The position numbers and the translations under genes were made by a program. The notes under the pieces were generated by a model. The model ran no database searches. It was not told the origin of the DNA and was given only the letters and a program-made list of their open reading frames with translations. 64,000 nt of DNA, from NCBI GenBank assembly GCA_023150935.1, contig JAKLJW010000002.1, positions 124,001 to 188,000 of the forward strand, in the 5' to 3' direction. Shown here piece after piece: positions 9,986 to 14,876 of the stretch. Position 1 is the first letter of the stretch, and the number at the start of each line of letters is the position of its first letter. Source of the DNA: Candidatus Binatia bacterium (GTDB taxonomy: Bacteria > Desulfobacterota > Binatia > HRBIN30).

Positions 9986-10178
9986 AATGACCTCCCCGCC
10001 GGGCGCCCGAATCCGTCCGATACGACCGGCCCTAGACCGGTAGCACGGACCGCGGCGTTCAAGAAAGCGATTTCGACCGCAGAGGTCGTAGACCGGACCC
10101 GCGCCCGGATTTTGGCCTTGTCCGATTGTGATCCTTCCCCGGTTTGTGTTAGATGACCAATCGCTGAAAGGAGTGCTC

Positions 10179-11285
10179 ATGCGGGGTTGGATCTATGCTG
10201 CGGTTGGTTTCGGTCTCGTGTCGTTCGCTTCGGCGGCACAGGCGGGGCCGTTCGTATATGCGGCGAACGCGGACAGCAACGACGTCACGGTGATCGATGC
10301 GGCTACCAATCTCGTGGCGACGACCGTCAACGTCGGCAACGAGCCGCGCAACCCCGCGGTCAGCCCCGACGGCTCGCGGGTTTATGTGCCGAACCGGTTC
10401 GGCGACAACGTCACAGTAATCGACGGATCGAACAACACTGTACTTACCACCATCGCCGACTCGGGCTTCGACGAGCCGTATGCGGCGGCGGTGAGCCCCG
10501 ACGGGTCACGGGTGTACATCGCCAACAAGGAAGGCGGCGGGAGCAGCACCGGCAGCGTCACGGTGATCGATGCCTCCGACAACACCGTCATAACGACGAT
10601 CGACGACACCTGCTTCGTGTCGCCGGAGTGGGTGACCGTGAATCCGGCCGGGACGCGCGCTTACGTGGTGAACCGCCAGGGGAACAGTGTCTGCGTCGTA
10701 GATACAGGCACCAACACCGTCGTGGACGACGTGACCGTCGGCAGCGAGCCGCGCTCCGCCGTCGTAACCTGCGACGGTGCCTTCGTCTACGTCGCGAACA
10801 ACCTCGGTTCGCCCGCCGTGTCGAAGATTCAGACGTCGGACAACACGGTCGTCGGCGGCATAAACTTCGGCAGCGGCACTCCACGAAATATGTCGATCAC
10901 TCCCGACTGCAGTAAGATCTACGTCCCGCTACAGAACGACAGCGTCGGCGTGATTGACCGGACGGCAGGTGACGCCACAGCGCTGATCGCTGTCCCAAAT
11001 GGCGATCGGACATACGGCAGCGCGGTGCTCGACAGCGGCACGAGCGTCTATGTAACCGACGAGGATGACGACGAGGTCGAGGTGATCGACGTCGCAACCG
11101 ACACCGTCCTGAGCGGGCCGGGCCTGCCGATTCCAGCGGGCAGTACGCCTCGCGGCATTGCGACCGGTGGCCAGGCCGTCGTTGTCGCGCCAACCCCGCT
11201 GATGTCGCCGCTCGGGCTCGCGCTCATGGCCGGGCTGCTGGCCGCCGGCGGTGTGGTCGTCGCGCGACGCCGCTCGGTTGGTTGA
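10179..11285 (+). CDS. Exported YVTN-family beta-propeller protein with C-terminal sorting tail
   Basis: 368 residues from the ATG at 10179, with GAAAGGAG just upstream; signal peptide at 1-22 (AQA cleavage). About seven repeats of the form SPDGSRVYVxNxxxxNVTVIDxxxNTV make a YVTN-type seven-bladed propeller covering about residues 24-335. The C-terminus is PLMSPLGLALMAG followed by a hydrophobic stretch and ARRR, which resembles IPTL/PEP-CTERM-like surface sorting tails. Such proteins are surface or S-layer linked binding proteins without known enzymatic activity. It diverges from the phospholipase-like gene with 193 bases between starts, so promoters of both should lie in that gap. Confidence 0.83.
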   Translation: MRGWIYAAVGFGLVSFASAAQAGPFVYAANADSNDVTVIDAATNLVATTVNVGNEPRNPAVSPDGSRVYVPNRFGDNVTVIDGSNNTVLTTIADSGFDEPYAAAVSPDGSRVYIANKEGGGSSTGSVTVIDASDNTVITTIDDTCFVSPEWVTVNPAGTRAYVVNRQGNSVCVVDTGTNTVVDDVTVGSEPRSAVVTCDGAFVYVANNLGSPAVSKIQTSDNTVVGGINFGSGTPRNMSITPDCSKIYVPLQNDSVGVIDRTAGDATALIAVPNGDRTYGSAVLDSGTSVYVTDEDDDEVEVIDVATDTVLSGPGLPIPAGSTPRGIATGGQAVVVAPTPLMSPLGLALMAGLLAAGGVVVARRRSVG

Positions 11286-11295
11286 GGTCGGTGCC

Positions 11296-11895
11296 TTACT
11301 CGACGGAGACGTACGCGTCGGGGTCCGCAGCAGGCATCACGAGGGCGGATACGCTCGCCGCTGCCGCCAGACCCGAGTAAGCCGGCACCAGCGCGAACAC
11401 CACCTGCATCACGGTGTCGCCGAGCCAGTGAAGGCCCGCAGTGTAGTTGCATACTAGGACGCCGACGACGGCGAAGTTGGCGATGCCGCCGAGGTGCCCG
11501 ACCCACGCGCCCCGGCGCGGCGTCCGAGGCGACCGCGCCAGCCATGTCGCCGCCACGTAGGTCCCAAACGCCGTCGCCATTGCCCCCGGCACCCACCACG
11601 GCGCCACGCCGAGCGCCACGTACGCGCCCAGCGCGGAGACCAGAAAGCCGATATCCGCGAGGTGATCGAACACCCGCCCGGCACGACTGGCCGTACCCGC
11701 CCGCCGCGCGAGGCGCCCGTCCACCACATCGCTCGCCGCCACCAGTGCGAAAACCGGCACCGCTAAACCACCCCACCACGCCTCTGCATCGCCGACGACC
11801 AGAAAAACGAACACGGGCGTGAGCGCTACCCGCAAAGCGGTCAGCGCGTTGGCAAGGGTGAGTGCCGATGCCGGCAGGTTGCTGGCCGGGCTCAT
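11296..11895 (-). CDS. CDP-alcohol phosphatidyltransferase family protein
   Basis: 199 residues with about five membrane helices. The catalytic signature is complete: D-x2-D-G-x2-A-R-x8-G-x3-D-x3-D, seen as DVVDGRLARR followed by GRVFDHLAD (about residues 56-83). Members transfer a phosphatidyl group from CDP-diacylglycerol to a small alcohol such as glycerol 3-phosphate or inositol, in the cytoplasmic membrane. The acceptor is not predictable here. It is the last gene of the CarH operon, 21 bases after the stop of the cyclopropane synthase, so its product probably works on the same phospholipid pool. Confidence 0.88.
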   Translation of the reverse strand: MSPASNLPASALTLANALTALRVALTPVFVFLVVGDAEAWWGGLAVPVFALVAASDVVDGRLARRAGTASRAGRVFDHLADIGFLVSALGAYVALGVAPWWVPGAMATAFGTYVAATWLARSPRTPRRGAWVGHLGGIANFAVVGVLVCNYTAGLHWLGDTVMQVVFALVPAYSGLAAAASVSALVMPAADPDAYVSVE

Positions 11896-11916
11896 CGAGT
11901 CGCGCCGCCCTGGCGT

Positions 11917-13149
11917 TCAGGTCCCGGGCTTGGCCAGGACGAGCTGTGCGTCGCCGATGTGGCGCACGGCGAATGCCGCTTCGCAACTGGCCAGGTAGAG
12001 CTCCCACATGCGCACGAAGCGCGCATCGAAACCGAGCGCCGACACGGCTGGCAGATTGGCGAGAAACCGCTGCCGCCACGCCCGCAGCGTCAGCGCGTAG
12101 TGTGGGCCGATGTCCCGCAGCCATTCGAGCCGCAGGTCGGTGTGCCGCCGTATCGAATCGATAATCGCCGCCACCGACGCCAGCAGTCCGCCCGGGAAGA
12201 TGTGTTTGCGAATCCAGTCGAACTCCCGCCGATAGGCATCGAAACGCTGGTCGGGGACCGTGATCGTCTGCAGGAGCATGCGGCCCGCGGGTGCCAGCAG
12301 GTTGTTGCACGCCTCGAAGAACGCGGCGTAGTTTTCGTATCCGACCGCCTCGAACATCTCGATGGAGACGATCCGGTCGTAGCACCCAACGGCGCAGCGG
12401 TAATCGCACAGCTCCAGGGTGACCCGATCGGCCAGGCCCGCCGCGGCCACGCGCTCCCGGGCCAGTTCCAGTTGCCGATCCGACAACGTGATTCCGGTTA
12501 CCTGGCAGCCGTACTTCCCGGCCGCGTGCAGAGCCAGAGCGCCCCAGCCGCAGCCGATTTCGAGCACTTTCATCCCCGGCCGGAGATCCAGTTGCCGGCA
12601 GATTTCGTCGACCTTCCGTCGTTGCGCGACTTCGAGCGGTTCGTCGACCGCGGCGAAAACCGCACAACTGTAAAGCATGTCGTCGTCGAGAAAGAGCCGA
12701 TAGAGATCGTTGCTCAGGTCGTAGTGGTAAACGATGTTGCGGCGGCTTCCCCGCAGAGTGTTGGCGCGTGCCCATTGGAGGCAGCGGTGCCAGAGCCGGG
12801 CCGGGAGTGTCCATGCGGTGCGGTGCGGCGCGAGCGACTGATCGCGTAGGAACACCATGCACAGCGTCACGAGATCCGATGCCTCCACCTCGCCCTCGAT
12901 GTACGATTCCGCCACCCCGATCTCACCGGCGGCCAGAACCCGCCGGAAGAACATCCAGTCGCGGATCGTAACCGTCACTTCGGAGGCGCGCACGGGATCA
13001 CCGACCTCGACGGCTTCGCCGTTGGGCAGGATCAGGGTGAGCGCTCCGGCTCGCCAGCGGCGCATGGCCGCGAGGACAACCCGCGCAGCCACGCGCTCAA
13101 CCCACGACACCGAGGACTCTGTACCCGTAACGGCGGCGGTTGCATTCAT
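11917..13149 (-). CDS. cfa: Cyclopropane-fatty-acyl-phospholipid synthase family methyltransferase
   Basis: 410 residues from the ATG at 13149, which follows AAAGGAGG at good distance; the open frame extends upstream to 13626, but that part is non-conserved Arg/Ala-rich sequence. The SAM-binding motif KVLEIGCGWGALALHAA lies at about residues 190-206 and is followed by the typical VTGITLSDRQLELA, and by SIEMFEAVGYENY, the conserved region with the active-site Glu. Cfa enzymes add a methylene from SAM across double bonds of membrane phospholipid acyl chains. It sits between a CarH-type repressor and a CDP-alcohol transferase, so expression is probably light- and B12-dependent (inference). A 253-base gap precedes it, so an additional internal promoter cannot be excluded. 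Confidence 0.92.
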   Translation of the reverse strand: MNATAAVTGTESSVSWVERVAARVVLAAMRRWRAGALTLILPNGEAVEVGDPVRASEVTVTIRDWMFFRRVLAAGEIGVAESYIEGEVEASDLVTLCMVFLRDQSLAPHRTAWTLPARLWHRCLQWARANTLRGSRRNIVYHYDLSNDLYRLFLDDDMLYSCAVFAAVDEPLEVAQRRKVDEICRQLDLRPGMKVLEIGCGWGALALHAAGKYGCQVTGITLSDRQLELARERVAAAGLADRVTLELCDYRCAVGCYDRIVSIEMFEAVGYENYAAFFEACNNLLAPAGRMLLQTITVPDQRFDAYRREFDWIRKHIFPGGLLASVAAIIDSIRRHTDLRLEWLRDIGPHYALTLRAWRQRFLANLPAVSALGFDARFVRMWELYLASCEAAFAVRHIGDAQLVLAKPGT

Positions 13150-13402
13150 CGCGCGGCCTCCTTTGCGGCGAGACGGCCCCATACGGCGTCGGGTGCGCTG
13201 GGCTGCCGAAGGTTCGGGCTGCCGGCGGCAAGAGGCACCTTTGCGGTTCAGCGGCAACGCCACCCGCGCATCGCGCCTCCGATCTTGAGCGCGTGCCGTG
13301 GAAAGCGCAAGCGCAACCGCACCGGAGCTCCCGAGCCCGGCGGCGCCGCAATCGGCGATGGCGGCGCCGCCGCGAAGCCGGACACAGCGGACTCCGGTAA
13401 GT

Positions 13403-13780
13403 TCAGGCCGCGTGCCGGTGCGCCGAGCACTGGCGGTACACCGTCGGTGGCGCCTGATCGAGCCAGCGGCGCACGACGACGCGAACATACGCGGGCTCCA
13501 GCCCGAAGAGATGGCACAACGGTACGAAGCTGAACGGCCACCCCGTGTCGTCCGAGTCGATCCAGGCGAGGCTTTCGGCCACGCGCCGGCGGTACTTGGG
13601 GTCGCCGTTGCGATCTCGCACTTCAATGAGTGCTTGCGCCAGGACGGCGCCGGCGAGCTTGCGCTCGGGCGACCAGTTCGACCGCCGCGGCAGTTGCGCC
13701 GCCACCATTTCTCCCCCGGCCAGCAGGTGATCTATTACGCCGAGGTCTAGGCCATCGGATCCGAAACTTGGCATAGCCAT
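13403..13780 (-). CDS. Conserved hypothetical protein in CarH operon
   Basis: 125 residues, no signal peptide or membrane segment, mostly helical. The start ATG at 13780 has AGGAAAGGAGC upstream. The centre has a repeated-charge helix (PERKLAGAVLAQALIEVRDR) and then WIDSDDTGWPFSFVPLCHLFGLEPAYVR. The WPFSF-x-LCxxxGL-x-P-x-YVR pattern recurs, as I remember it, in short deltaproteobacterial hypothetical proteins, and the C-terminal part looks like a small helix-turn-helix. No function is assigned. It lies 30 bases after the stop of the CarH-type gene and is probably cotranscribed with it. Confidence 0.7.
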   Translation of the reverse strand: MAMPSFGSDGLDLGVIDHLLAGGEMVAAQLPRRSNWSPERKLAGAVLAQALIEVRDRNGDPKYRRRVAESLAWIDSDDTGWPFSFVPLCHLFGLEPAYVRVVVRRWLDQAPPTVYRQCSAHRHAA

Positions 13781-13810
13781 CTTGAAGCTCCTTTCCTGAA
13801 GTCTCCGTCC

Positions 13811-14779
13811 TCAACGGTGCAGAACCAGGTTGTCGCGCAGCCGCACGCTCTCGAGGTCAAGTTTGTCCAAGTCGTCGATGACGATTCCGCGACGCGAATC
13901 GCTGCCGGCGGCGACCGCGCGGGCTTCCCGTCCGCCCAGCCAGAGATCCACCCCGGGCGGTAGCAGCGATTCGATGTGACGCACCTCCTCCACCGCCCGG
14001 GCGCGGTTGTTGTCGTTGACGAACCCGAGCCCGAGCACGCTGACGTCCGGCCGCCGCGCCGCAGACAAGATGTCCGCGGCCGGTACGTCCGGTCCGAGGC
14101 AATGCACCCCCACCCCGGCGTCGCGTAGCAACAGCGATACGATCCATAACCCCAACTCGTGACGCTCTCCGCCGGGGGTGGCCAGCACGACGGGCGCATC
14201 CCGCGACACACCTTGCGCCCGAATCATGCTCCCGAGCAGGTTGCGCAAGAGGCCGCTGGCGAGATGCTCGGCACCGACGGTGAGGGTCCCAGCCTCCCAG
14301 CGGTCCCCGATTTCTGCCAGCAACGGGGACACCACCTGACACACGAAGTCGCGGTGACCGAGCACGATCAGGGCATCGCTCAGCCGGGCTTCGAATGCTG
14401 CGGCATCGAGTCGCTGGAGCGATTCCAGCAGGCCCTCGCCCGCCCGCGGCAAGGGCGATGAATCGGGGCGAACAGCGGCGGAGCCGTTTGCGGGCCCCGG
14501 GGCCGTTGCCGGAGGCCGCGCGTCAACCAGGACACGCAACTCCGACACCCCAAGACGCGCCACGTCCCCGATCGCCCTGCCGCTGGCAACCACCTGCGCC
14601 AGGAGCCTCAGATGCGCGATATCGGCAGCGCTATACAGCCGCGATCCGCGCGGGCCCCGAACGGGAGCCACCACGCCATACCGCCGCTCCCAGGCCCGAA
14701 TCACATCCGCCGACAGCCCGGTCATCCGAGACACCGTGCGCAACGGATAGGCATCGTGCGGCTCTGGCTTGACCGCCAT
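13811..14779 (-). CDS. carH: CarH/LitR-type adenosylcobalamin photoreceptor, MerR-family repressor
   Basis: 322 residues. Residues 11-75 are a MerR winged helix (RTVSRMTGLSADVIRAWERR). Residues about 115-190 form the four-helix cap domain with the CarH signature W161-x9-E171-H172, and residues about 195-320 the B12 Rossmann domain with E205-x-H207-x-x-G210, whose His is the lower cobalt ligand. Trp-to-His spacing is 46, as in Thermus thermophilus CarH (W131, H177). In that protein AdoCbl in the dark drives tetramer formation and repression; light breaks the Co-C bond and frees DNA. The residue after the Trp, His132 in Thermus, is Glu162 here. It is the first gene of the operon with a small protein, cfa and a CDP-alcohol transferase, with a good promoter upstream. 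Confidence 0.93.
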   Translation of the reverse strand: MAVKPEPHDAYPLRTVSRMTGLSADVIRAWERRYGVVAPVRGPRGSRLYSAADIAHLRLLAQVVASGRAIGDVARLGVSELRVLVDARPPATAPGPANGSAAVRPDSSPLPRAGEGLLESLQRLDAAAFEARLSDALIVLGHRDFVCQVVSPLLAEIGDRWEAGTLTVGAEHLASGLLRNLLGSMIRAQGVSRDAPVVLATPGGERHELGLWIVSLLLRDAGVGVHCLGPDVPAADILSAARRPDVSVLGLGFVNDNNRARAVEEVRHIESLLPPGVDLWLGGREARAVAAGSDSRRGIVIDDLDKLDLESVRLRDNLVLHR

Positions 14780-14839
14780 CAGCGGTACCCTCCCCGACTC
14801 ATCCCCCCCCCTGCATCGATGAAACCCGATTCGTTCATT

Positions 14840-14873
14840 TGTCCGATTCTGTAAGCCTCCTGTCTGGACATGT
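14840..14873 (-). promoter_or_regulatory. Candidate CarH operator: four phased ACA triplets
   Basis: On the minus strand ACA occurs at 14873-14871, 14863-14861, 14852-14850 and 14842-14840, spacings of 10, 11 and 10 bases; three of the four are GACA. They run from the -35 box to just past the -10 box. CarH proteins are known to bind tandem direct repeats of about 11 bp that overlap the promoter, so this is a plausible autoregulatory operator. A GACATGTC palindrome (14868-14875) overlaps the -35. Confidence 0.5.
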
Positions 14874-14876
14874 CAA
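14848..14876 (-). promoter_or_regulatory. Sigma70-type promoter of the CarH operon
   Basis: On the minus strand TTGACA (14876-14871) and TACAGA (14853-14848) are separated by exactly 17 bases. The -35 box is perfect. Transcription should start near 14841, leaving a leader of about 60 bases before the ATG at 14779. Confidence 0.65.

Follow-up and report, generated by a model that had tools for sequence, protein, structure and literature searches.

What a CarH-like regulator controls when the genes behind it act on membrane lipids is the question raised by a four-gene set in the 64,000-nucleotide stretch of Candidatus Binatia bacterium contig JAKLJW010000002.1 analysed here (the window). An earlier note on this DNA had placed four genes here, and all four open reading frames were found on the minus strand, from 14779 to 11296. 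The first is a CarH-like gene (carH; 13811..14779) whose 322-amino-acid (aa) product joins a MerR helix-turn-helix to a two-part cobalamin-binding domain, as recognised by Pfam and PDB matches. Directly 3' of it, after 30 bp, lies a gene for a 125-aa helical protein of a Binatia subfamily (13403..13780), followed, beyond a gap of 253 bp, by the gene of a probable UfaM-like, S-adenosylmethionine (SAM)-dependent phospholipid acyl-chain methylase (11917..13149; 410 aa), the ATG of which is preceded by AAAGGAGG, and, 21 bp further on, by a CDP-alcohol phosphatidyltransferase gene (11296..11895; 199 aa; PF01066, 1e-21). The four genes are likely carried on a single transcript, and the reading that we consider fairly probable is that of a light-derepressed photoprotection operon, in which CarH bound to adenosylcobalamin (AdoCbl) would be the repressor and acyl-chain methylation the output. 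This model proposes that in the dark the AdoCbl-bound CarH-like protein would sit on its own promoter and block the operon, and that in light the Co-C bond would be broken, the protein would leave the DNA and the operon would be transcribed. UfaM would then methylate unsaturated acyl chains of membrane phospholipids, yielding a methyl-branched, trans-unsaturated chain that may protect the cell from photo-oxidation. Where sister species encode UfaD and UfaO, the route could continue to furan fatty acids; in the window genome it seems to end with the methylated lipid.

The methylase and its genomic company

The nature of the enzyme decides what such a switch would deliver. The methylase belongs to the CMAS family (Pfam) and its best solved relatives are cyclopropane fatty acid (CFA) synthases, with a 204-bit match to the E. 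coli CFA structure 6bqc; the earlier note had accordingly named it a cyclopropane fatty acid synthase, which turned out to be the wrong subfamily. The protein scores below every NCBIfam CFA equivalog cut-off, although the best NCBIfam row is still a CFA synthase model, and in a tree of 19 sequences it falls with UfaD/UfaO-adjacent proteins (support 97/93), away from the E. coli, Aquifex, Lactobacillus and mycobacterial (CmaA1) enzymes, the reference UfaMs of this tree being defined by their adjacent UfaD and UfaO, with the characterised RSP2144 left out. His266 of E. coli CFA synthase, which we take to be its catalytic residue, is replaced by Gln, and FEHVG reads FEAVG; the Gln and EAVG are common to all 13 rows of the UfaM group. 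A true cyclopropane synthase, for which the family, the match to 6bqc and the top NCBIfam row would speak, is thus very improbable and was rejected on the tree and the active site. The enzyme is probably a UfaM-like acyl-chain methylase, for which 11-methyl-12-trans-18:1 would be the expected product, and UfaM is known to methylate cis-vaccenate in phospholipids (PMC7380195).

The gene company of the enzyme points the same way. On plasmids, most of its closest relatives are encoded within UfaD-UfaO-UfaM clusters; several of these clusters also hold lipocalin, DUF2878, chalcone-isomerase-like or photolyase genes, and ChrR/sigma-E or MerR genes occur in some. One Rhizobium relative lies near ChrR without UfaD or UfaO. 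Within Binatia, a CarH match at E < 1e-30 was obtained in 13 of 148 genomes, and the CarH clade considered here comprises 11 loci, the window and ten others. UfaD, UfaO and UfaM adjoin CarH in four of these genomes, as carH, small gene, ufaD, ufaO, ufaM in G003 and G006, as carH, small gene, ufaM, ufaD, ufaO in G012, and as a ufaD-ufaO-ufaM set divergent from carH in G045; the trio also lies near a more distant CarH in G064 and G066. The gene order itself goes beyond chance, since the small gene follows carH in seven other genomes and carH keeps company with the methylase in several. A photolyase gene stands directly upstream of carH in G004, G009, G011 and G013, and G004 adds a GTP cyclohydrolase gene to this company. 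Neither UfaO (PF07103) nor a UfaD-like protein was matched in the window genome, which is 99.5% complete, so a methylated rather than a furan lipid is expected, a furan lipid as end product being rejected here, and the window locus is likely a shortened version of the UfaD-UfaO-UfaM CarH loci.

The carotenoid alternative was rejected for this genome. It encodes just two SQS_PSY proteins, HpnC and HpnD, both of which exceed their cut-offs, and no phytoene synthase is seen among them, so that a carotenoid output is unlikely; the phylum as a whole has been reported to carry carotenoid genes (PMC8262859). The claim that light triggers lipid remodelling rather than only carotenoid synthesis is partly supported, in that a CarH-type gene leads a lipid-modifying operon and a lipid rather than a carotenoid output is likely, but it is not new as such, because light-induced ufaM is already known from the class II LitR system of Pseudomonas (PMC9758184) and a blue-light-induced putative CFA synthase, in a response mediated by ChrR and MerR, from Vibrio cholerae (PMC5241685).

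The phosphatidyltransferase carries an intact DxxDGxxARx8GxxxDxxxD catalytic motif and a weak NCBIfam match to ClsA (57.6 bits vs a cut-off of 240). Other genomes of the order encode close matches to it, though at sites away from CarH, and its operon link with CarH is seen only at the window locus. A YVTN beta-propeller gene (10128-11285) is convergent with it, the two gene ends lying 10 bp apart. Two further observations concern the methylase family. A second CFA-like methyltransferase lies near CarH at L119 (9621-10637) and L120 (6553-7587), about 52% identical to a Burkholderia SAM methyltransferase beside DUF1295; and a Klebsiella pneumoniae plasmid (NZ_CP129856.1, 509174-520283; L108) carries lipocalin-MerR-SDR-UfaD-UfaO-UfaM-DUF2878-DUF3833-DUF523, apparently a photo-oxidative lipid cluster.

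The regulator and its promoter

Whether this lipid operon would answer to light depends on the regulator. The CarH-like protein has the domain set of class I CarH/LitR (MerR_1, B12-binding_2 and B12-binding in Pfam), and its best PDB matches, 3whp and 5c8d, are CarH of Thermus (E about 2e-32). GxxW, EH, GxxH and GxxxP, the four SignatureFinder elements used to pick light-responsive cobalamin-binding domains (PMC11796333), are all present, as is the Wx9EH motif, in the stretches GDRWEAGTLTVGAEH, GGERHELG and GPDVP. An alignment of ten Binatia homologues, the window protein among them, shows no variation at the Trp, EH, GExHxxG, GxxxP and GG positions. A Cob_adeno_trans adenosyltransferase is also encoded in the window genome.

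A shared promoter element accompanies these genes. The sequence GACA-N4-TTGACA, mostly TGTCNNGACA-N4-TTGACA, overlaps the -35 position and is common to the upstream regions of the other CarH genes, in most of which a -10-like hexamer can be seen by eye 16-18 bp beyond TTGACA. With its spacing of 4 the element lies within 200 bp upstream in 10 of 10 other clade members, genomes that are related and so not independent, and another spacing was found once; shuffled controls gave the spacing-4 element in 3 of 20,000 (1.5e-4 per region, 0.015%). It occurs about twice per genome in 58 genomes, and just upstream of every other clade CarH gene or operon. G108, which was found after the motif had been defined and thus served as a hold-out, carries it in both orientations. 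Published CarH operators are tandem 11-bp repeats of nnnnTnnACAn (PMC9304148); the hexamers of the Binatia element are instead 10 bp apart in all ten other clade promoters, and only TTGACA and some TGGACA fit TnnACA. The exact element was not found at the more distant MerR-B12 genes of G064, G066, G115 and the second copy in G108 (34-38% identity) or G020 (29%). In the window genome the exact consensus operator occurs only at a second carH locus (L042), at the start of the operon.

At the window locus the putative carH promoter and operator (14848..14876, minus strand) are a displaced variant of this arrangement, in which TTGACA (14871-14876) is followed by the palindrome TGTCCAGACA (14861-14870) inside the 17-bp spacer that leads to TACAGA (14848-14853). 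This promoter contains the sole TGTCNNGACA of the 64-kb window, and of the three highest-scoring sites in a matrix scan of the window, two lie upstream of carH.

Several observations weigh against the proposed light switch. The consensus element is missing from the window promoter, whose TTGACATGTCCAGACA variant scores 7 against 16-35 for the others, and a pattern of the window type would arise by chance in about 0.3-0.4% of shuffled carH upstream regions. The 253-bp gap 5' of ufaM has room for another promoter. The CarH-like protein scores 136.9 bits against the NCBIfam TransRegCarH equivalog, the cut-off being 400, so that by this measure it is a homologue and not an equivalog. The residue after the Trp, equivalent to His132 of Thermus CarH, is Glu, and across the ten-member Binatia alignment the position reads E/A/H/S/S/S/M/S/L/A; this His, a ligand of the bis-His light state, occurs in many class I proteins but not in all, and membership of the class does not require it. 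The H132A variant of Thermus CarH mostly stays tetrameric in light (PMC10442372), and an intact Wx9EH does not by itself fix oligomeric behaviour (PMC9304148). In the B12 motif ExHxxG...SxT/V...GG, moreover, the ExHxxG and GG are kept while Ser is replaced by Gly at residue 251. The earlier description of complete AdoCbl photoreceptor signatures is thus nearly upheld, with GxxW, Wx9EH, GxxH, ExHxxG, GxxxP and GG in place and with the His132 equivalent and the Ser of SxT/V replaced.

These substitutions lend some weight to a regulator that would sense B12 status or redox rather than light, in which case AdoCbl-dependent repression would report on the cofactor or on oxygen and the operon would serve a general response to membrane stress, and the majority of cobalamin-binding domains are indeed not light-responsive (PMC11796333). 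We regard this alternative as unlikely, as the Binatia set shows no change in the Trp, EH and GxxxP by which light-responsive domains are told apart, and as the relatives show linkage with photolyase as well as with photo-oxidative genes (UfaD/UfaO/UfaM, lipocalin, chalcone-isomerase-like). With Glu in place of the His132 equivalent, the light state would probably do without the bis-His ligation of cobalt that Thermus CarH employs. However, a light response through another light state is plausible, because CtMerR, with Arg at the His132 position, still photolyses and monomerises (PMC11796333).

Three further loci bear on CarH and its operators. The second CarH homologue of the window genome (contig C20; L042, G000:C20 6643-10786), 53% identical to the window protein, has lipocalin and acyltransferase genes upstream of it and a DUF2878/chalcone-isomerase-like gene diverging from it. 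In G108 (L116 6196-6257) two operators stand back to back upstream of carH, and a DUF523 gene is convergent downstream of carH. In G045 (L056 9318-9349) two operators of opposite orientation lie between the divergent carH and ufaD-ufaO-ufaM, possibly a natural bidirectional light promoter.

The intergenic gap and the small helical protein

It might be that CarH controls only carH and the small gene, with ufaM and the phosphatidyltransferase expressed from a promoter of their own in the gap (13150..13402, minus strand; 253 bp). The gap is GC-rich and holds a strong hairpin (13338-13372; 17-bp arms, 1-nt spacing, GC-rich, lacking a T-run), and the divergence of the window operator from the consensus would also fit such a split. 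This arrangement seems rather unlikely, as no operator was found in 13150-13402, as a sigma-70 scan gave no promoter-like match there (a scan whose last-T rule excludes TACAGA and which thus overlooks the carH promoter too), and as ufaM lies within the CarH cluster in several other genomes, including G012, where it follows the small gene on the same strand after a short gap. Two other uses of the gap were considered and rejected: a structured RNA, with no Rfam match at 10-20 kb of the window and a folding z-score of 0.64 for the 253 bp, and a UfaD/UfaO remnant, the best match to which (E 0.008 over 29 residues, against a 253-bp database) lies on the strand opposite to the operon and is unconvincing. 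A hairpin arm has 10 loose matches in the window vs 3 expected.

The single transcript of the preferred reading would include the small gene, and the question is then what its product does. The gene follows carH in 8 of the 11 clade loci and stands beside a divergent MerR-B12 gene in G020, an association that would suit a CarH partner, for example an antirepressor like CarS in Myxococcus. The CarS antirepressor has an SH3-like beta fold. The AlphaFold model of the small protein is, unlike that, all-helical, with five helices (confident over about residues 40-110; predicted local distance difference test score, pLDDT, about 90 in the core; predicted template modelling score, pTM, 0.58), and it gave no significant fold match (Foldseek E no better than 3.8, VIA Z at most 4.7). 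Nor is the gene found beside CarH in G045, in G108 or at the second CarH of the window genome, and its paralogues are spread over many loci, where the neighbouring genes are mixed, as judged by reading the sequences around 21 of them. A role as CarH partner is therefore doubtful. The protein matched no known family in Pfam, NCBIfam, PADLOC or PDB sequences, and the members tested of its wider family, which we call the WPFSF small-protein family, matched none in Pfam or NCBIfam. A scan of about 85,000 species, each represented by one genome, gave nine relatives of its subfamily, with Binatia and 'Deltaproteobacteria' metagenome-assembled genomes among the titled records. More distant paralogues occur in 58 of 58 Binatia genomes searched (G000-G057), in up to 17 copies, and a search of plasmids with a paralogue as query gave no match. 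The suggestion that it could be a new component thus survives in part. The protein is real and has a link with CarH, but Binatia genomes hold several to many such paralogues apiece, so that it is not unique to this system.

Known light-controlled systems and the meaning of the locus

Light control of UfaM-type enzymes is known elsewhere, and the window operon is read as a variation on a known light-protection system rather than a system of a new kind. The class II LitR regulon of Pseudomonas putida and mendocina (PplR/PmlR: phrB, ufaM, folE, cryB; PMC9758184) resembles it in a MerR/LitR-family regulator with light-induced ufaM and photolyase, and shares with Binatia the gene company of UfaM, photolyase and GTP cyclohydrolase (G004). 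Class II LitR, however, has one of the two B12 domains and is coupled to a LOV photoreceptor, whereas in the window regulator neither B12 domain is lost and the operon contains no LOV gene. The class I CarH proteins of Thermus, Bacillus megaterium and Myxococcus (PMC9304148, PMC10442372) are alike in the MerR domain, the Wx9EH four-helix bundle and the ExHxxG Rossmann B12 domain, and in an operator that overlaps the -35 and consists of TnnACA-like repeats; they differ in their carotenoid-gene outputs and 11-bp repeats, where Binatia have hexamers 10 bp apart, the TGTCNNGACA palindrome in most, and His132 mostly absent. The ChrR/sigma-E singlet-oxygen regulon of Rhodobacter (UfaM, UfaD, UfaO; PMC7380195) and the ChrR/MerR system of Vibrio cholerae (PMC5241685) use the same enzyme family, and ChrR-type systems share the company of UfaD, UfaO, lipocalin, DUF2878, chalcone-isomerase-like and photolyase genes. 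ChrR/sigma-E responds to singlet oxygen through an anti-sigma factor rather than a B12 photoreceptor, and the window genome has a CDP-alcohol phosphatidyltransferase in place of UfaD and UfaO. CtMerR (8JBS; PMC11796333) is a light-responsive MerR/B12 protein that likewise lacks His at the 132 position, but is distant in sequence from the window CarH (36.8 bits).

A literature search from which subscription papers were mostly out of reach returned no report of a B12-dependent CarH driving ufaM. It is possible, though unlikely on present indications, that in Binatia lacking phytoene synthase a class I B12 photoreceptor without the bis-His ligand directly switches methylated or furan lipids through an operator of 10-bp spacing, with the small, Binatia-specific helical protein as co-regulator. 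Were this true, it would provide a direct route, with the chromophore in the repressor, from light to the synthesis of furan or methyl-branched lipids. In the literature read here, such synthesis answers to singlet oxygen by way of ChrR, or to class II LitR working with a LOV partner. For studies of how CarH releases DNA, these genomes supply natural CarH proteins most of which have no bis-His ligand, and the predicted operator is amenable to testing by one binding assay. For the lineage itself, described as yet uncultured (PMC8262859), the locus suggests a photoprotective role of light sensing.

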